Source: Tolumonas lignilytica (GTDB lineage Bacteria; Pseudomonadota; Gammaproteobacteria; Enterobacterales; Aeromonadaceae). From it: a DNA stretch of 64,000 nt. Shown here one piece after another: positions 889-60,162 of this stretch (position 1 is its first letter; the number at the start of each line of letters is the position of its first letter). The notes below the pieces were generated by a model. It was given only the letters and a program-made list of their open reading frames with translations, made no database searches and had not been told where the DNA came from. The position numbers were made by a program, and so were the translations under genes. Location of the stretch: NCBI RefSeq assembly GCF_000527035.1, contig NZ_AZUK01000001.1, positions 124,001 through 188,000 on the forward strand, written 5' to 3'.

Positions 889-1676
889 ACAAACAATTAA
901 TCCATCAGAATCCCTGGGATGAACTGAAACAATTTACGGCCGCCAGAATTGCGTTAGGACGGACAGGCAGTAGCTTGCCAACCGAAGAATTGCTGAAATT
1001 TGGTCTGGCACATGCACAAGCCCGGGATGCCGTACACCAGCCCTTTGGTATAGACGCATTGGCAGAAGAATTGCATCAACAAGGATTTTCCACACTACAG
1101 GCCTATAGTGCGGCCGCTGATCGTGAAACCTATTTGCGTCGTCCCGATTTAGGTCGCGAATTGGCGAATGAATCACGTGAGTGGCTGAAACAACAGGCTG
1201 TTGAGCCGATAGAACTGGTGATCGTAGTGGGTGATGGCCTATCTTCTACTGCCATCCATCGCAATACCGTACCTTTTTTATTGGAGTTACGCCCGCGCCT
1301 TGAAGCACTCGGCATTGCAATCGGCCCCATTGTTCTAACCCGACAAGCTCGCGTCGCGATTGGCGATGACATTGCTGAGAGCCTGAAAGCAAAGGCAGTA
1401 GCGGTACTGATCGGTGAACGCCCGGGTTTATCCTCGCCTGACAGCATGGGAATTTATCTCACCTGGTCACCCCAGGTCGGTTTATTAGATTCCGAACGCA
1501 ATTGCATATCAAACGTGCGTCCAGAAGGTCTCAACTACCCTGAGGCCGCACATAAACTTAGCTGGCTGCTGGGAGAAGCATTTCGCCGCCAGATTAGCGG
1601 TATTAACCTCAAAGATGAAAGTGATAATTTTCCAGATATTTTGTTGCAATATAAAACATCAGCTACACTCATATAA
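885..1676 (+). CDS. eutC: Ethanolamine ammonia-lyase small subunit EutC
   Basis: This is the light chain that, with EutB, forms the B12-binding ethanolamine ammonia-lyase. At 263 residues it is somewhat shorter than the roughly 295-residue E. coli protein, mainly because the N-terminal extension is short. Diagnostic blocks are TAARIALGRTGSSLPTEE near residue 19, VVGDGLSSTAIH near 118 and ERPGLSSPDSMGIYLTW near 180, all typical of the EutC family. The ATG lies inside the eutB stop (ATGA overlap), so the start is well fixed. It is the last gene of the transcript: a rho-independent terminator follows about 60 bases downstream, and the next gene is ldhA, not another eut gene. Acetaldehyde made here would need a dehydrogenase or reductase encoded elsewhere. 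Confidence 0.96.
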   Translation: MNKQLIHQNPWDELKQFTAARIALGRTGSSLPTEELLKFGLAHAQARDAVHQPFGIDALAEELHQQGFSTLQAYSAAADRETYLRRPDLGRELANESREWLKQQAVEPIELVIVVGDGLSSTAIHRNTVPFLLELRPRLEALGIAIGPIVLTRQARVAIGDDIAESLKAKAVAVLIGERPGLSSPDSMGIYLTWSPQVGLLDSERNCISNVRPEGLNYPEAAHKLSWLLGEAFRRQISGINLKDESDNFPDILLQYKTSATLI

Positions 1677-10759: not shown

Positions 10760-12790
10760 CTAAACAGAATCAAGCCGGCTATGCAATGCTTGCCATGATG
10801 CCTCAGCGACATTGGTGGTAGCCTGCAACAATACAGCAATGTGTGGTTTTGACTCCCGACATGCAATTTCAAGTTGGCCACACATATCTTGTAAAGCAAC
10901 AGCGCCCAGAGCACCCGCACTACTTTTCACCGCATGCGCATGTTTTGCTGCACCAGCAAGATCGTCTTTAGCTGTTAATTCAGCTAAGGCATCAAAATGC
11001 TCTTTGCTTTCCTGTAGGAAAATAGCGATCAGATGTTTGAATAAATCCGGGCTTGTATCATTGACCAAGGTTTGAATAACACGCTCATCCAGTATCGGTT
11101 TTGTTGTTCCAATCATGGCAACTGGTGACTCCACAACTTCTGACACGGTTCCTGTATTATCAGTTAATGTCCATTTTTTCAGCAATGAATATAATTGGTC
11201 TCGCTGTAATGGCTTGCTGAGATAATCATTCATCCCTGCTTCCAGACAGGCATCTCGATCATGAGCAAAGGCATGTGCAGTCATAGCAAGAATAGGTAAA
11301 GAGGCATAGCGCCTTCCCATGGCACGGATCTGCCGTGTTGCTTCCAATCCATCCATTCCTGGCATAGAAACATCCATGAGAACGATGTCAAACTCACGCT
11401 GTTGAACCATCGTAATAGCTTCATAACCATTATTTGCAATAGCTAGCTGGCATCCGGTTTTTTCCAGCATGGCTGTAGCAACCATTTGGTTTGTAACGCT
11501 GTCTTCAACTAATAAGATGCTGATTGGCAACGTCACGTGCTCTTCATTCTGGATTTGTTCCGGTACGTTGCCGCTTGTTTTGACAGGTAAGGTAAACCAA
11601 AAGGTACTGCCAATACCGGGGACTGAATGGCAACCTATTTTACCACCCATGAGCATGACCAACCGCGCAGCAATGGCCAGCCCCAACCCCGAACCACCAA
11701 AGCGTCGATCCAGATTTGTATCTACTTGTGAAAATTCCTGAAATAACCGCTGCTGATCCTGTTCTGAAATACCAATCCCAGTATCGCTGATGTGAAATAT
11801 CATCATGGGAACAGATTCTGCCTTTTGCTGAGTAGCCGGCAACATTCTCACCGAAATACTGACGCTGCCCTTCTCTGTGAATTTGATAGCGTTCGCCAGT
11901 AGGTTTTGCAAAATTTGTCTTAATCGAGAAGAGTCTGCAGTCACTAAATCCGGAACGTCATGATGAATACTTAATCCAAAATGGAGCTTCTTCATTATGG
12001 CTTCTTTTTCAAATAAAGATGCCAGTCCATCAAGTAAATCATGCAGTTTGAACGACGTTGCTACCAGCTCCAAACGACCAGCTTCGATTCTTGAAAAATC
12101 CAATACATCGTTCACCAACTGTAATAAAGAACGTCCTCCTTCGCAGACCCCCTGAGTCAGCTTACGTTGTCGCTCATCAAGCTGCGTCTCTAGAAGCAAT
12201 TCTGAAAGATTAATAACAGCATTCAGTGGTGTGCGGATCTCGTGACTCATCGTTGCCAGAAAATGGCTTTTTGCTTTATTGGCGGCCAGCGCTTCATCTC
12301 TAGCCTGGATCATGCTTTGCTGTGCAAGTTTAAGACGCTGGTATTGACGGCAACTGATCAATGCCAGCGCCAGTTTATTCACTAGCGGTAAAATTTCCTG
12401 CAGCAAGCCATCGCGAAATGGCGCACTGCGGCCAAGAAGTAATGCCCCAAAGTCCTGTATCGGCCAAGCATAGTAATAAAGACCTGCAGACTCAAAATAA
12501 CAGAGAGGAACTGGCAACGCTTCATGGTGTGTCAGACATTCCAGTGAATGGTTAATAGCTTGATGTAAATACTGATTGCGGACTGCGGCTCTCGGCAAAA
12601 TGTAGGATGGCGTATAGAAATCGTCTTGTTCGTCACGAAGTAAAACAACAGCCGTAGCGCATCCCAACCCTCTTAAAAATACAGGGATGCATTCAGAGAG
12701 CATTTTTTCCAATTCAATGCCCTCGCCAATCGACATAGCGATTTCATGTAATACTTCCTGCTCAATTAATCCTTGGCGTATCACTGGCAA
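10760..12790 (-). CDS. Hybrid histidine kinase with receiver and HPt domains (VpsS-like)
   Basis: This cytoplasmic phosphorelay kinase has no clear transmembrane segment. Domain order over 676 residues: a GAF-like N-terminal sensor (about 10-150), a coiled HisKA with His183 in MSHEIRTPLN, HATPase (N box ANAIKFTEKG near 300, G boxes DTGIGIS and GGSGLGLAI), a receiver (about 423-541) with Asp473 in LMDVSMPGMDG and Lys in LSKPL, and a C-terminal HPt with His619 in HAVKSSAGALGA. All four phospho-transfer sites are intact, so signal can travel His-Asp-His to a separate receiver. The obvious acceptor is the LuxO-like protein two genes upstream. The start is a TTG at 12790 (AGGA 4 bases before) or a GTG at 12784; both lie inside the end of the FIST gene (29-base overlap). 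V. cholerae VpsS is similar, but as I recall it relies on separate LuxU. Confidence 0.9.
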   Translation of the reverse strand: MPVIRQGLIEQEVLHEIAMSIGEGIELEKMLSECIPVFLRGLGCATAVVLLRDEQDDFYTPSYILPRAAVRNQYLHQAINHSLECLTHHEALPVPLCYFESAGLYYYAWPIQDFGALLLGRSAPFRDGLLQEILPLVNKLALALISCRQYQRLKLAQQSMIQARDEALAANKAKSHFLATMSHEIRTPLNAVINLSELLLETQLDERQRKLTQGVCEGGRSLLQLVNDVLDFSRIEAGRLELVATSFKLHDLLDGLASLFEKEAIMKKLHFGLSIHHDVPDLVTADSSRLRQILQNLLANAIKFTEKGSVSISVRMLPATQQKAESVPMMIFHISDTGIGISEQDQQRLFQEFSQVDTNLDRRFGGSGLGLAIAARLVMLMGGKIGCHSVPGIGSTFWFTLPVKTSGNVPEQIQNEEHVTLPISILLVEDSVTNQMVATAMLEKTGCQLAIANNGYEAITMVQQREFDIVLMDVSMPGMDGLEATRQIRAMGRRYASLPILAMTAHAFAHDRDACLEAGMNDYLSKPLQRDQLYSLLKKWTLTDNTGTVSEVVESPVAMIGTTKPILDERVIQTLVNDTSPDLFKHLIAIFLQESKEHFDALAELTAKDDLAGAAKHAHAVKSSAGALGAVALQDMCGQLEIACRESKPHIAVLLQATTNVAEASWQALHSRLDSV

Positions 12791-13892
12791 GTAATCCTAC
12801 AACCGATGTTTTATTATAAAGTTCAAGGTAGTCATAGCCGCTATTCGCTATTTCACCCAAAGTCAGTGCCCCGATTAATGGAATATCAGGCATAGCCACA
12901 TGCGTTATTTCTCTGGCGAATAATTCCCCCAGAAATAACACTCTTGAAATACAATCCATGAACAACATAACTCGGGGTTTACGACCTTTCAGATTTTCCG
13001 CCGCTTTTTGTCGTGCACGACCAGCAGCGGCTGAGACATAATCAGGTTTTCCATGCATTACATGAACATACGAGCCACGTCTTACATCACCCACACAAAC
13101 AATCCGTTCCCCATTGAGTGCGATGGGATCTCTGATCACTAGTTCATCCGCCAGTTTAGCAATGCCGAATGGATATGCTCTGGCGATTTCAGTAAAAGGT
13201 ATTTCCGAAAAACAGATACCAGAATGGTCTTCAACAATACTCCGGTATACCTCTATCGCTGGTCGCCAATCAATAGAAATAATTTCATTCCCTTCTACCT
13301 CAGTGACCTTGAATGCCCGGGAAATCGATTGCCATCCATGTGCAACGCCAATACCACTCAAAATATCAGCCATCACTAAAACGGCAGCATCGGCTAATAT
13401 ACCCAGCGGAGTGATGACGCACGGCTGATCCAGTTTTTGCAACGAACCACATCCCCCGCCGATATAGTTTATTTCCAGACCATACTGATTAAATAAACCA
13501 TCAATGAGCCGTTGAACCCCTGAACTCATACCATGTACGAAGGTGAACAACGTGCCTCTTTCTGTATTTTGCCAAGGGAGTTGCTGTTGCAATTCAATTT
13601 CGAGCTGAGTGTTCTTACTTATATTCGGAATAACGGCCATATTGAATGGGCAAGAAAGACCAATCAGTACAATCCCAGATGTCAGCAACAATTTATCGTG
13701 GATGACATAAGGGAAGATCCCGCCAATCACAGGCTTTGCATTAGCAACCAGCAACTGATTAATATCATCATGCGCTATTTCGGTTTGAGAGGCACATAAC
13801 ATGATGATAAATCGGATATTTGGATCTGCATTCAGGATTGCCAATTCATCCTGAAGTTGAAGCACACCCGCTGATACCAGTACACATTTCAT
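12762..13892 (-). CDS. FIST domain sensor protein (VpsV-like)
   Basis: FIST_N and FIST_C domains bind small ligands, possibly amino acids, and usually accompany signal-transduction proteins. The 376 residues begin MKCVLVSAGVLQLQDELAIL. The FIST_N core runs to about residue 200 (FTFVHGMSSGVQRLIDGLF, NYIGGGCGSLQ), followed by FIST_C (ISIDWRPAIEVYRSI, FSEIPFTEIARAYPFGIA) and a typical C-terminal block (MLFMDCISRVLFLGELF, GALTLGEIANSGYDYLELYN). The frame is open 60 codons further upstream, but that stretch overlaps the preceding regulator gene and looks unlike FIST proteins; the ATG at 13892 lies 25 bases after that gene's stop. There is no signal peptide, so it should sense cytoplasmic ligands. 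Its stop overlaps the start of the hybrid kinase, implying a shared signalling function. Confidence 0.88.
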   Translation of the reverse strand: MKCVLVSAGVLQLQDELAILNADPNIRFIIMLCASQTEIAHDDINQLLVANAKPVIGGIFPYVIHDKLLLTSGIVLIGLSCPFNMAVIPNISKNTQLEIELQQQLPWQNTERGTLFTFVHGMSSGVQRLIDGLFNQYGLEINYIGGGCGSLQKLDQPCVITPLGILADAAVLVMADILSGIGVAHGWQSISRAFKVTEVEGNEIISIDWRPAIEVYRSIVEDHSGICFSEIPFTEIARAYPFGIAKLADELVIRDPIALNGERIVCVGDVRRGSYVHVMHGKPDYVSAAAGRARQKAAENLKGRKPRVMLFMDCISRVLFLGELFAREITHVAMPDIPLIGALTLGEIANSGYDYLELYNKTSVVGLLASDTPRIN

Positions 13893-13917
13893 ACCGCGTT
13901 CCCAATATTGCAGACCA

Positions 13918-15300
13918 TCAGGCCGACTGCCAAGCCAATCGCTTGCGATAAATAGTAGAAGGGCTAAGTTCCAGTAAAGCTGCCGCTTGTGGAATATTTC
14001 CGTCACAAGCAGCAATGGCATTCTCAATGGTCTCTTTTTCAACCACCCACATAGGCCGGATTTCTGCAGCACTATTTATTGCAGCTGCGGGTGTTAAAAC
14101 GGTCTGAATGATAGGGATCGCCATTGATACGGTGTTTAACGGCGGAGGAAACATGGCAGGTAACACTTTTTCACCATCATGCAAAACCACGATATTACGT
14201 ACTACATTTTGCAGTTGTCTGACATTTCCCGGCCATTCATAGTTCAGCAACATCTGTGCAGATTCAGGGCTGAAATCAATGAATCTCTTATTTTCTTCAC
14301 TCGCAAATTGACGGAGGAATCGACGGGCAATAGCTAATACATCCTCTCCTCGCTCCCGCAATGGCGGTAATGCCACCGGAATAACGTGCAGACGATAATA
14401 TAAATCTTCACGAAAACGCCCCGCCTGCACCTCCGCAATCGGATCCCGGTTGGTTGCACAAACGAACCGAACATCCACCGTTTCTAATTTGCTGCCACCT
14501 ACGCGTTGAAAAGTCCCAGTTTGAATAAATCTCAACAGTTTGGCTTGTAAATCCAATTCCATTTCACAGATTTCATCAAGGAACAACGTACCGCCATCAG
14601 CGCGGGCTGCCGCCCCTTCCCGATCAGACTGGGCCCCTGTAAATGCGCCTTTAACATGTCCAAAAATTTCACTTTCGATCAAATCTCGAGGGATAGCAGC
14701 ACAATTCAATACCACTAATGGTTTTTCTTTGCGAGGGCTGATCTTGTGCAATGTTTCGGCGCACACTTCCTTCCCTGTACCACTTTCGCCGGTAATAAAA
14801 ACAGTGGCCTTACTGGGGGCTGCACTTTCAAGTATCCGGTACACAGCCTGCATTTGTAATGAGCTGCCGATGAATCCACCGAATCCAGATAAATCATAAT
14901 TTGCACGATAGGTATCAACCAATGTACTTAATTGTTGATGCTTCGCGGCATTGCGCACCGTCGTGCATAACCGTTTTCCATCAAAAGGTTTGGTCAGAAA
15001 ATCAAATGCACTGTGCCGCATGGCTTCGACAGCGATATCAACAGAGCCATGTGCCGTAATAACGACCACGCTGGTTGGCAGCCCCTGTTCGCTGACAAAA
15101 CGCAGTAGCTCCATTCCATCCATGTCGGGTAATTCGAGATCCAGCAACAACACTTGTGGTGGTTGTGCTTTCAATGCCTCTAAGCCATCCTGACCCAGAC
15201 GAAATGCTTTGATCTCATAGGATTCTGCACGTAAATAATCCTGATAGAGCATGGACAGCATTTCACTGTCTTCTACCAAATAAACCAGTGGACTCATCAT
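13918..15300 (-). CDS. Sigma54-dependent response regulator, LuxO-like
   Basis: This is an NtrC-class activator. A receiver at residues 4-120 has Asp54 in LLLDLELPDMDG and Lys in LTKPF. An AAA+ domain follows, with Walker A GESGTGKE (171-178), the sigma54-contact loop GAFTGA (218-223) and Walker B GGTLFLDEI. A Fis-type helix-turn-helix lies at about 418-458 (ACDGNIPQAAALLELSPST). Similarity to Vibrio LuxO is strong in the AAA+ region (TLHKISPR, LLRFIQTGTFQRVGGSK, FVCATNRDP) and in the C-terminus. LuxO controls quorum-sensing Qrr sRNAs, but I saw no qrr-like gene or -24/-12 promoter next to this one. It is the first gene of the operon with the FIST protein and the hybrid kinase. Start codons at 15300 and 15297 are both possible. 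Confidence 0.9.
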   Translation of the reverse strand: MMSPLVYLVEDSEMLSMLYQDYLRAESYEIKAFRLGQDGLEALKAQPPQVLLLDLELPDMDGMELLRFVSEQGLPTSVVVITAHGSVDIAVEAMRHSAFDFLTKPFDGKRLCTTVRNAAKHQQLSTLVDTYRANYDLSGFGGFIGSSLQMQAVYRILESAAPSKATVFITGESGTGKEVCAETLHKISPRKEKPLVVLNCAAIPRDLIESEIFGHVKGAFTGAQSDREGAAARADGGTLFLDEICEMELDLQAKLLRFIQTGTFQRVGGSKLETVDVRFVCATNRDPIAEVQAGRFREDLYYRLHVIPVALPPLRERGEDVLAIARRFLRQFASEENKRFIDFSPESAQMLLNYEWPGNVRQLQNVVRNIVVLHDGEKVLPAMFPPPLNTVSMAIPIIQTVLTPAAAINSAAEIRPMWVVEKETIENAIAACDGNIPQAAALLELSPSTIYRKRLAWQSA

Positions 15301-15472
15301 TGTGATTCTCTTTGTTTTAATGTGCTCTTATTAACATTAACAGCTTAGCACTCATTCACAACATCTAGTTGTTGTCACTCAGATTTCTGAATCGATAACA
15401 ACAACCTATATAAATTTAGAATTATTCGTTCCCAACTTCCTAATATGATACGCTTTGCGTACCACCCCTGCT

Positions 15473-58056: not shown

Positions 58057-58533
58057 TTGATCATCCTTTGTTAATTTCCGCTTACTAAGCAGTAAAACAC
58101 TGCGTTTTACAGCTCCAAAAGCCCTCTTTCTTTGTAACAATGTAACAAGGTTTGCTTTCAGAGGCTTGGTATGGCGCTAAATATGGCGCTAAAACGGTTC
58201 AGCCGGTGTGATCGATGTTGTAATTTTGTAAAAGCCGCTGCGATGTAACTGTTACATTTTCATTGTGTGATCATCGTCATACATATATTAGACCTAGCTA
58301 ACTTTTAGTTTTCCCCTTTGCTGATTCGATACAGCATTGAATTTTGCAATTGCAAAATGCACGGACAGAATTGCGTTTTGCAAGATCACGCCTTTCGCCC
58401 CCTCTAATAAGAGATATTGGTAACGATTTTTATTTGGCGCAAAAAATGCTGTATGAAAATTGATCTAGATCATTTCCTTGCGGTCGATCTATCTCGTATC
58501 TGTCAATTCCTGATATTTACTCTGGAGAACCAA
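58057..58533. promoter_or_regulatory. Repeat-rich divergent regulatory region of the sugar operon and chemoreceptor
   Basis: This 477-base region has no credible gene. It holds tandem TGTAACAA copies (58133-58148), a tandem 12-mer TATGGCGCTAAA (58170-58193), a 15-bp dyad ATGTAACTGTTACAT (58243-58257), a CRP-like TGTGA-N6-TCATA (58266-58281), an 18-bp palindrome ATTTTGCAATTGCAAAAT (58341-58358) and a further TTTTGCAA half-site near 58376. These are candidate operators for the operon and the chemoreceptor gene. Confidence 0.65.
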
Positions 58534-60162
58534 GTGAAAAATAATCAGCCCGTCACCCAAAAAGAAAGAATGTATTCACCCGAGTTGAATCTCATTTCCA
58601 CTACGGATTTACAAAGCCATATCACCGATGCCAATGCTCATTTTTGTGACATTGCAGGGTTCACACTTGATGAACTGCGTAATAAGCCTCATCACATTGT
58701 GCGTCATCCTGATATGCCCCCTCAGGCATTTGCAGATATGTGGCAACATATTAAACAGGGTCGCAGTTGGATGGGTTTGGTTAAGAATCGTTGCAAGAAT
58801 GGAGATCATTATTGGGTCAATGCATTTGTAACCCCGATACGAAATGCTCAGGGTAAAATCATGGAATATCAATCCGTACGCGTCGCGCCGGGCGATGAAG
58901 AAAAGAAACGTGCAGAAAAAATTTATGCTCAGTTAAGAAACAACCAGACCCCGCTCGCATTACGCCTGCCCAAAATTGCCTCGGCAACTTGGCTGCAAGG
59001 TATTCTTATTCTGAATACACTGATTTTAAGCTGGACATTGATGTTTGGTTTTAATACCCCTCTTCTGTCACTCGCTGTTTTTATGATTGTCGTCGCGTTA
59101 TTGATGAACCATAAACAAGCAAAACGATTACAGAAATTAAGTCAAAAAGCACGTCAACGTTTTGATAACCCGTTAATGCAATTAATTTATACCGGAAAAG
59201 TCGATGACTTAGCCGCCATTGAGCTGTCGGCATTAATGAGTGAGGCTGAACTGCGAGCTGTTGTAGCCAGAACCGGGGAAACCAGTCATGGCATTCTCAA
59301 TGCCGTTGGCAATGACGTGAACAATGTCATGTCAATTACTCGTAATCTGGAACAACAACGTGCCGAAACAGACATGGTGGCCACTGCCGTATCAGAAATG
59401 AGCAACTCCATCCGCGAAGTCTCTCAAAGTGCGGCAGATACTTCACTCTCGATTGACCAAGCGACACATCTATCCAGCGAAGGAAGAGAAAGCGTCGAAG
59501 GCACAATTGGCGCAGTGGTCGGGATGCACAATGAAATTACCCGCTCCCAGGCGGTAATCAAAGCATTGGCAGGCGATTGCCGGGCTATTGAGCATGTTCT
59601 GGATGTTATCAATAACATTGCTAATCAAACGAATCTGTTGGCACTGAATGCCGCTATTGAAGCAGCCAGAGCTGGAGAACATGGTCGAGGCTTTGCGGTG
59701 GTTGCAGATGAAATTCGTGCATTAGCCATTAAAACGCAGTCATCGACCAGTGAAATTCAAAACATGATCAGTGAATTACAAAGTAGCGCCAGCAAAGCAG
59801 AACAGGCCATGGAATCAGGACAAAAACTGTCGGCCACCTGTCAGGATAAAGCACAAAACACAGGGCTGATCCTTGAAAAAATTGATGCCATGTTGCAACA
59901 AATAGCCGCTGCAGGCACCCAAATTGCGCAGGCGGTCGGCCAGCAAGCAAACGTGACAGAAGAACTCAGTCATAATGTATTCAACATCAAAACACTGGCT
60001 GAAGAATCGACAACCCGCAGCGATAAAACAACGGCTGGTATCAATGCGCTTGCGGAACGATTGCTGACCTTAGATCGGCTAATCACTCAATTTCAACGGA
60101 AAGGAACGCAGGATGCGTTTCAAAGCAATGTACTACTTGAACCCGTTATTGAATCTTTGTAA
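58534..60162 (+). CDS. Aer-like PAS-domain chemoreceptor
   Basis: This 542-residue methyl-accepting protein has a cytoplasmic N-terminal PAS domain (residues 15-120; [59 protein letters not shown]) like the FAD- or heme-binding PAS of Aer. Two adjacent hydrophobic segments near 160-205 ([36 protein letters not shown]) anchor it in the membrane without a periplasmic domain. The signalling domain follows ([37 protein letters not shown]). The GTG at 58534 has GGAG 7 bases upstream and gives a family-like N-terminus; a longer frame from 58417 does not. A likely role is redox or aerotaxis sensing. Confidence 0.87.

Follow-up and report, generated by a model that had tools for sequence, protein, structure and literature searches.

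The window analysed here, the whole stretch of 64,000 nucleotides from a Tolumonas genome (G000:C1:124001-188000), contains a minus-strand operon of three open reading frames (ORFs), which encode a LuxO-like sigma54 activator, named LuxO1, a FIST protein and a hybrid histidine kinase with a fused histidine phosphotransfer (HPt) domain. On balance, we lean towards reading it as a FIST-gated, LuxU-independent relay of the SypF-SypG or VpsS-LuxO kind, directed onto a small RNA that is a candidate analogue of the vibrio quorum-sensing RNAs (Qrr), with a chemoreceptor gene as a further candidate target. The DNA carries the genes and motifs of such a relay, no other LuxO or LuxU that the searches could find, and an RNA gene with a conserved structure, LuxO boxes and promoters. 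The family-wide occurrence of this small RNA is more surprising than the operon itself. The features of the operon are as follows; the kinase residues are numbered from TTG 12790.

13918-15300, minus strand: LuxO1, a LuxO/SypG-type sigma54 response regulator of 460 amino acids (aa); Pfam Response_reg (REC), Sigma54_activat, AAA_lid_14 and HTH_8 over cut-offs; NCBIfam LuxO model NF041946, 647.1 bits (cut-off 800); LuxO crystal structure 5ep0, 475 bits
15139-15141, minus strand: Asp54 codon of LuxO1, the predicted phospho-acceptor, in the motif LLLDLELPD
14767-14790, minus strand: Walker A motif GESGTGKE of LuxO1, from residue 171
14632-14649, minus strand: sigma54-contact loop GAFTGA of LuxO1, from residue 218
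12762-13892, minus strand: FIST_N + FIST_C sensor protein of 376 aa; PF08495 (FIST) and PF10442 (FIST_C) over cut-offs; NosP model 18.9 bits (cut-off 450)
10760-12784, minus strand: hybrid kinase HisKA-HATPase-REC-HPt, 674 aa from GTG 12784 or 676 aa from TTG 12790; Pfam HisKA, HATPase_c, Response_reg and Hpt over cut-offs; the GTG start matches those of relatives L097 and L098
12242-12244, minus strand: His183 codon, phospho-acceptor of the kinase HisKA domain (residue check)
11372-11374, minus strand: Asp473 codon of the kinase receiver (residue check)
10934-10936, minus strand: His619 codon, phospho-acceptor of the HPt domain, in AHAVKSS (residue check)

The sequence-only reading had described this operon with the same coordinates, the three motifs or residues of LuxO1 and the three of the kinase, all of which were verified. 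The gap of 25 bases that it gave between LuxO1 and FIST holds, provided that FIST begins at ATG 13892. The overlap of FIST with the kinase exists, but probably measures 23 bases rather than 29, because the relatives L097 and L098 use the GTG that corresponds to 12784. The highest 19-residue Kyte-Doolittle means of the kinase and FIST are 1.72 and 2.0, over the usual 1.6; the peaks resemble domain cores, and in our judgement both proteins can be taken as cytoplasmic despite them. The gene order is not due to chance, since match coordinates place luxO1 next to the FIST gene in 11 of 11 Tolumonas genomes, and all three loci of sufficient length (L097, L098 and L029) have the complete operon with the flanking genes that it has in the window. 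An orthologue of the FIST protein was found in 14 of 75 family genomes (E <= 1e-30), namely all 11 of group g1 and all three of group g5. Group g1 is Tolumonas, g2 is probably Aeromonas and g4 probably the Oceanimonas/Oceanisphaera group, whereas f22 is read as the vibrios because only f22 carries Qrr over the cut-off; the group labels, as well as the gene names folE, sbcB, uvrB, yvcK and malE, are our own assumption.

LuxU was claimed to be unnecessary to this relay, and a separate LuxU-LuxO pair had been named beforehand as the observation that would speak against the claim; it was sought in the genome and not found. No second LuxO-type regulator was detected there, the next match reaching 42% over residues 2-388 (304.9 bits vs 1021.6). 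Nor did PF01627 find a stand-alone HPt protein or LuxU in the genome: its 11 Hpt matches, 10 of them over the cut-off, all fall in open frames of 678-1275 aa. Small HPt proteins encoded next to luxO or FIST genes are within its reach, since it picks them up in six of six cases from relatives and a vibrio (33.7-55.4 bits), and the assembly was scored 99.96% complete, so that the absence of LuxU is meaningful. At the LuxO1 locus itself there is no adjacent luxU; what stands nearby is a hybrid kinase with its own HPt, as in SypF-SypG. The claim therefore stands as far as the gene content goes, with one LuxO-type regulator, no small HPt and a LuxU-free His-Asp-His-Asp path as the only obvious one, while the flow of phosphate along it stays a prediction. 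A relay without need for LuxU would be the most economical reading. In a search for a possible origin of the fused HPt from LuxU, the best match was the HPt of a g5a kinase, followed by a mixture of kinase HPts and LuxUs. The operon illustrates how a four-step relay gets shortened, with the shuttle domain carried on the kinase.

LuxO1 has the REC-AAA+-Fis-type HTH architecture of LuxO with GAFTGA, and LuxO is still the best of all NCBIfam models for it, even below the cut-off. Its identity in the receiver, AAA and HTH parts is 45/70/61% to vibrio LuxO and 44/65/66% to a SypG-like protein. The tree groups the regulators of Tolumonas, g5a and g2 together with support of 95/93; the deep relation of this group to vibrio LuxO, SypG-like proteins and other kinase-linked regulators lacks resolution and carries a long-branch warning. 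The approximately unbiased (AU) test, with groups picked by gene neighbours once the tree had been seen, rejects joining the LuxO1 group with the LuxU-linked LuxOs (p-AU 0.0105), but it also rejects the LuxU-linked set as a clade alone (p 0.0382) and the LuxO1 group joined with the kinase-linked set (p 0.034). LuxO1 had been called a LuxO copy. It is about equally near to a SypG-like protein and to vibrio LuxO, and the tree does not make it the orthologue of the latter; the term exceeds the evidence, and LuxO1 is better described as a protein predicted to work like LuxO or SypG.

LuxO-type regulators occur in 74 of the 75 family genomes (E <= 1e-110; the exception is G038) and in 105 of 345 genomes of an order-wide draw (E <= 1e-125). 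Their neighbours were read in 20 hand-picked loci (L137-L156) and in the family loci. In 15 of the 20 picked loci the regulator has a hybrid kinase on its 5′ side, directly in 13 and with a receiver-like ORF between in two; Pfam confirms the HPt domain in both 5′ kinases scanned, that of L149 (SypF-like) and that of L137. In some other families such kinase-LuxO pairs adjoin glycosyltransferase-like genes. The vibrio loci L147 and L148, like the g4 locus L087, have luxO-luxU without FIST, and a luxO-luxU-FIST-kinase cluster is found in the g5 loci L082 and L083 and in L154 (family f3). L146 has luxO-luxU followed by short ORFs that match pieces of FIST and the kinase, and L152 has none of luxU, FIST and kinase beside its LuxO-type gene. 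The comparison of FIST, kinase and LuxO synteny suggested by the sequence-only reading thus finds the operon kept in Tolumonas, with luxO-luxU-FIST-kinase variants in g5 and f3. Two f6 loci that have a kinase-LuxO pair, L150 at 305 (-) and L151 at 759 (-), show a LuxO-like box and a sigma54-like site 72 bases apart, which may mark a further target.

One of the two candidate targets lies outside the window.

G000:C1:3005110-3005185 (L105:1688-1763), between folE- and sbcB-like genes: candidate small RNA of ~76 nt, recognised by its boxes, promoter and hairpins

The genome contains eight exact LuxO-box sites TTGCANNNTGCAA against one for the reversed control, a weak enrichment. The exact box of L105 has near-matches beside it and is followed by AAAAAGTTGGCACGGCATTTTCAT and then by a short hairpin-terminated unit. 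The other seven exact sites were dropped for lying in or at ORFs or for lacking a convincing promoter. By DNA search, 12 of the 14 genomes tried contain the unit. Among nine aligned copies the first 29 bases are invariant, and the fold has two hairpins (z -5.24 for G000). A covariance model built from these nine sequences and run on 80 genomes matches 70 of the 75 Aeromonadaceae genomes (g1 9/11, g2 36/37, g3 0/1, g4 22/23, g5 3/3). The five without a match are G038 and the LuxO-bearing G071, G072, G031 and G057; G038, the sole family genome without LuxO, is a small control, being a single genome. G351 of family f3 has a weaker match (E 2e-4), with three LuxO boxes and a GC -12 element ahead of it. 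Of the 71 genomes with a match, 45 copies were aligned; the alignment was fitted to the covariance model and is hence biased towards it. In it 98.7% of cells pair, nine pairs are changed on both sides and both helices covary; none of 500 shuffles reaches any of the five covariation measures, and slid controls give 0-2 double-changed pairs. The Tolumonas RNA and the 17 g2 copies read share a core of 21 identical bases. UUUAUCCCGUGCUCUCUUCAG is the core of the RNA through which targets would be sought.

The RNA has no Rfam family: PhrS reaches 14.8 bits against a cut-off of 37, and in five loci nothing was found at the RNA at E <= 1. The Qrr model RF00378 does not match it. With strict filters, 18 of the 295 genomes drawn from the order carry RF00378 over the cut-off, all of them f22; G222 (f2) matches below the cut-off and none of the Aeromonadaceae drawn does; Rfam finds no Qrr in the window either. 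In the literature on quorum sensing, LuxO/LitR, small RNAs and FIST operons of Aeromonas and Tolumonas (titles and beginnings of abstracts among the open-licence papers listed), no such RNA is named. Excerpts of a 2017 review (PMC5247445) give LuxQ, LuxU, LuxO and LitR in Aeromonas on genetic evidence only, and its main text nowhere uses the words Qrr, sRNA or small RNA. The RNA is apparently undescribed and, from its sequence, looks like the Aeromonadaceae counterpart of the vibrio quorum-sensing RNAs. LuxO signalling in the Aeromonadaceae has been left open, and an RNA of wide distribution and conserved structure that follows LuxO boxes would fill in its missing middle step. The check for sigma54 promoters with Qrr-like RNAs thus yielded a candidate RNA behind boxes in the genome, but one that RF00378 does not match and whose -12 element is atypical.

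LuxO boxes (<=1 mismatch, within 260 bases upstream) are present at 33 of the 45 copies, whereas 200 dinucleotide shuffles average 2.35 and never exceed 7; by group, they occur at 6/6 copies in Tolumonas, 3/3 in g5, 17/17 in g2, 6/18 in g4 and 1/1 in f3. Exact boxes stand at 18 of 45, against 0.175 in shuffles. The -24 element is found in all 45 copies as TTGGCA (44) or CTGGCA (one), and both it and the boxes are conserved where the spacers vary. The -12 element of L105 (TC) was read by eye; TC or CC at this position, atypical as it is, is nevertheless conserved in the 44 Aeromonadaceae copies. As a positive control, 29 of 29 vibrio qrr loci have a box (<=1 mismatch) 60-117 bases upstream of TGGCA, and all 29 have GC at -12; apart from the -12 element, the layout of box plus sigma54-like promoter is common to the small RNA and the vibrio qrr loci. 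The pattern TGCANNNTGN{54,84}TGGCAYN6TGC, run on 28 genomes, found the vibrio qrr and g5 LuxO1 promoters and missed the Tolumonas small RNA because of its -12 element. The strict sigma54 pattern TGGCAYN5TTGCW gave 69 places in six Tolumonas genomes, of which 20 loci were read and none taken as a target. Its 12 sites in G000 comprise five inside ORFs and one before an unknown 192-aa ORF, the rest preceding flagellar, nif-like, glutamine-synthetase-operon-like and pseB-like genes (by eye). The one before a nifH-like gene (L191, region of G000:C1:3113575) is also present in G073 (L201), and this Tolumonas may fix nitrogen. Hits of the pattern run on 28 genomes that have a TGCACCATGATT core, in G000, G070, G071 and the vibrio G137, resemble NtrC sites.

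The position of the small RNA differs between genera. In g4 it lies 3′ of and opposed to luxO-luxU (L260, G040); in L260 a molybdenum-cofactor riboswitch (RF01055, 80.6 bits; 1120-1271, minus strand) is also close by. In g5 it stands at the 3′ end of luxO-luxU-FIST-kinase, slightly overlapping it (L082, L083), or beside luxU (L243). All five g2 loci read hold luxU, FIST, kinase and the RNA together, with a yvcK-like ORF between luxU and FIST that is clear in three; no close luxO was seen in these loci of 13-14 kb each, and g2 has its LuxO1 gene at another place, with no kinase beside it (L092, L095). L296-L300, probably Aeromonas, show the luxU-FIST-kinase-RNA cluster with luxO elsewhere, the kinase of L300 being split over two frames. 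In Tolumonas the RNA lies between the folE- and sbcB-like genes, next to uvrB, without relay genes; the vibrio luxO-luxU likewise sits between uvrB- and yvcK-like genes. Judged by synteny, the simplest history would start from one ancestral luxO-luxU-RNA neighbourhood, from which the regulator of the pair, LuxO2, was lost in g2 and LuxO2, LuxU and the neighbours were lost in Tolumonas, with LuxO1 taking over the promoter. LuxO1 would be left as the sole LuxO-type activator in Tolumonas, because the luxO-luxU or luxU found beside the RNA in other genera are gone there. Such a takeover has a laboratory parallel, since SypG activates V. fischeri qrr1 (excerpts of PMC10162802). The broader proposition is an even call: that the Aeromonadaceae, probably including Aeromonas, have an undescribed RNA controlled by LuxO and sigma54 in place of Qrr, with the activator exchanged between LuxO2-LuxU, LuxO1 plus a separate LuxU and, in Tolumonas, LuxO1 plus a FIST-gated HPt kinase; in Tolumonas, rewiring would have moved an ancestral quorum-sensing RNA from an autoinducer to a FIST-sensed input. 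The genera would then form a natural series, with a constant RNA under a changing relay.

The sequence-only reading saw no target genes in the window. Besides the RNA elsewhere in the genome, one candidate does lie inside it (58337-58449).

58337-58383, no strand assigned: three LuxO-box-like sites with one mismatch each to TTGCANNNTGCAA, a candidate LuxO1 binding region and the only window matches at <=1 mismatch
58436-58449, plus strand: sigma54-like promoter core GG-N10-GC, GGCGCAAAAAATGC, ~52 bases past the boxes (pattern and relatives)
58534-60162, plus strand: PAS-MCP chemoreceptor gene, a candidate LuxO1 target (MCPsignal and PAS_3 over cut-offs; mechanical ORF from 58417, GTG 58534 by comparison with L307)

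All three boxes fall within 47 bases, and none of 100 Markov windows holds three within 60 bases. Stretches from four relatives were compared. The chemoreceptor gene stands beside a malE-like gene in G074 (L301) and G070 (L307), where L301 keeps three boxes of the cluster and L307 two, each with 1-2 mismatches, and a TTGGC-type sigma54 site that ends in TTGC occupies the corresponding position; G066 has the malE-like gene without the receptor, and the G065 stretches have neither. There is no copy of the small RNA at the window box cluster (best 5.7 bits) and no Rfam family over the cut-off there.

Recognition of the box by LuxO1 is suggested by its residues and by its relatives. Eleven residues are needed for DNA binding by V. 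cholerae LuxO (excerpts of PMC11407668), and our own alignment maps nine of the 11 as identical in LuxO1. LuxO boxes with sigma54-like promoters stand at the LuxO1 locus itself in all three genomes of the sister genus g5, and therefore LuxO1 loci use this box. In 3/3 genomes they precede the divergent genes between luxO1 and FIST, the -24 element of one being TGGCCC; in 2/3 they also precede a STAS-like gene that lies upstream of luxO1. The promoter pattern used for these loci misses the window site with TGGCGC. The g5 sites lie at L089 8300-9270, L090 7500-8200 and 10600-10900, and L091 780-1000 and 3560-4720, before STAS-like and glycosyltransferase/acetyltransferase-like genes. SypG, a LuxO-like activator, turns on V. 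fischeri qrr1 via sites containing the LuxO motif TTGCAWWWTGCAA (excerpts of PMC10162802). The Tolumonas genome holds a candidate RNA and such boxes, to which LuxO1 may bind.

In the mechanism that we propose, FIST, the only sensor-type protein in the operon, would bind a ligand and shift the kinase/phosphatase balance of its partner. Phosphate would pass from His183 to Asp473, on to His619 and then to Asp54 of LuxO1, without LuxU, and phosphorylated LuxO1 would act at TTGCAnnnTGCAA boxes upstream of sigma54 promoters. The best candidate targets in Tolumonas are the ~76-nt small RNA, as a Qrr analogue, and the PAS chemoreceptor gene. The phosphotransfer, the contact between FIST and the kinase, the binding of LuxO1 to the boxes, the expression and targets of the RNA and the inheritance of the RNA by LuxO1 are steps that we infer from sequence. 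Direct feedback, with the RNA pairing with luxO1 mRNA, is a lead only: the predicted pairing between the leader of the RNA and the leader and start of luxO1 (window 15260-15350) has -21.7 kcal/mol and z -4.1, and luxO is second of 83 window starts, behind a short antisense ORF. Pairing with z <= -1.9 recurs in 7/9 Tolumonas loci, several near-identical, in 3/8 of g2, and in 0/5 of g5 and 0/4 of g4.

Several observations weigh against this scheme. The operon in Tolumonas has no LuxO box of its own in the window scan at <=1 mismatch, and two mapped DNA-contact positions differ in LuxO1 (V420L, L429R). Chance alone would put 6.8 boxes into 64 kb, more than the three at the chemoreceptor, so that only their clustering and conservation favour them. 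At the small RNA, the -12 dinucleotide in the 44 Aeromonadaceae copies is TC (41) or CC (three), not the expected GC, and 12 of the 18 g4 copies lack a box at <=1 mismatch. The RNA has no match in the four LuxO-bearing family genomes named above, each in 240-730 contigs and 80-95% complete. Outside the family, the model finds none in G228, G249, G083 and the vibrio G196, where LuxO-type genes are present; G228 carries luxO-luxU with FIST and kinase fragments (L146), and G249 is its congener (locus not read).

The same relay might instead control protein-coding operons for surface polysaccharide, the chemoreceptor and the like, in the manner of SypG, with the small RNA driven otherwise. We regard this as rather unlikely as a replacement, although the two readings are not exclusive and can both hold. 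It draws on the g5 promoters, which precede the STAS-like gene (2/3) and glycosyltransferase- or acetyltransferase-like genes (3/3; by eye), on the kinase-LuxO pairs beside glycosyltransferase-like genes in some other families, on the SypG-like residues at the two divergent DNA-contact positions and on the GC -12 that the window chemoreceptor promoter retains and the small RNA promoter does not. However, the Tolumonas operon has topA-, pabB-, helicase- and aroF-like neighbours (named by eye) and no polysaccharide genes, and no other LuxO-type activator was found that could account for the boxes kept at the RNA. A break within the operon is clearly improbable, the least likely of the alternatives: the fused HPt would then serve another response regulator and LuxO1 would be fed by other HPts, co-transcription alone suggesting a relay. 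The genome does have 10 further Hpt matches and many receivers, and one HPt can take several kinases, for example RscS to SypF (excerpts of PMC10162802); against it, luxO1 and FIST are adjacent in all the Tolumonas genomes, and LuxO1, FIST and kinase remain close in g5 despite inserted genes.

FIST may, as the sequence-only reading supposed, supply a cytoplasmic metabolite signal. If it were instead a haem sensor of the NosP type, the operon would report nitric oxide (NO) to the LuxO circuit; this seems unlikely to us. V. cholerae NosP acts via VpsS and LuxU in vitro, with an effect of NO (excerpts of PMC6769237), NosP genes often share an operon with their kinase (excerpts of PMC12570481), and the operon likewise has FIST_N + FIST_C beside a histidine kinase in which Pfam finds no sensor domain. 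The NosP model, however, gives the operon FIST just 18.9 of the 450 bits required, while a near-NosP protein is encoded elsewhere in the genome (L001, 427.9 bits). The model gives 65.4 bits for the L082 FIST beside the g5 luxO-luxU and 47.4 for a g2 FIST, and does not match the L154 and g5a FIST proteins. The eight relatives in named records are six from Tolumonas (68-85% identical) and two from Psychroflexus (28-32%); of the relatives in 12 plasmid records, the top four are FIST proteins of haloarchaea (38-39%). No solved structure of a relative was found. The NO effect of V. cholerae NosP/VpsS should not be carried over to the operon FIST without a test. Nor does the operon simply join the pair of VpsV, which is V. 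cholerae NosP, with VpsS, as had been supposed: its FIST scores far too low with the NosP model, and in relatives FIST-kinase pairs next to luxU or luxO-luxU exist separately. The further FIST proteins of the genome (L001, L002, L003) are the near-NosP, one fused to a chemoreceptor-like signalling domain and one fused to GGDEF/EAL-like domains (by eye).

Among known systems, the closest in design is SypF-SypG, the biofilm regulators of Vibrio fischeri. There, too, a hybrid kinase with a C-terminal HPt is the neighbour of a LuxO-like sigma54 regulator; SypG is considered to be fed by the HPt domain of SypF and is also able to turn on qrr1 through LuxO-type sites (excerpts of PMC10162802). A LuxO-like regulator paired with a kinase bearing its own HPt is, as such, not novel. 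The arrangement differs, however: the SypF-like kinase of L149 has a HAMP domain and sits 5′ of the regulator with no FIST beside, whereas the operon kinase lies 3′, lacks HAMP and has FIST between. The V. cholerae pathway NosP-VpsS-LuxU-LuxO is alike in that a FIST-type protein controls a hybrid kinase without a sensor domain of its own that feeds a LuxO-type regulator (excerpts of PMC6769237); LuxU is separate there, whereas the operon HPt is fused and its FIST is far from the NosP model. The luxO-luxU-FIST-kinase clusters (L082, L083 and L154, with fragments in L146) similarly unite a LuxO-type regulator and a FIST-kinase pair, but LuxU is separate, the g5 kinase ends after the receiver and the g5 FIST scores 65.4 bits with NosP against 18.9. 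The small RNA resembles the Qrr RNAs (RF00378) in its LuxO boxes, its sigma54-like promoter and its short predicted RNA with a terminator hairpin. It differs from them in its ~76 nt with two hairpins and in TC/CC rather than GC at -12; RF00378 misses it, and its own model misses the one vibrio genome tried. In g4 and g5 the RNA adjoins luxO-luxU or luxU, just as qrr1 adjoins the vibrio luxO.

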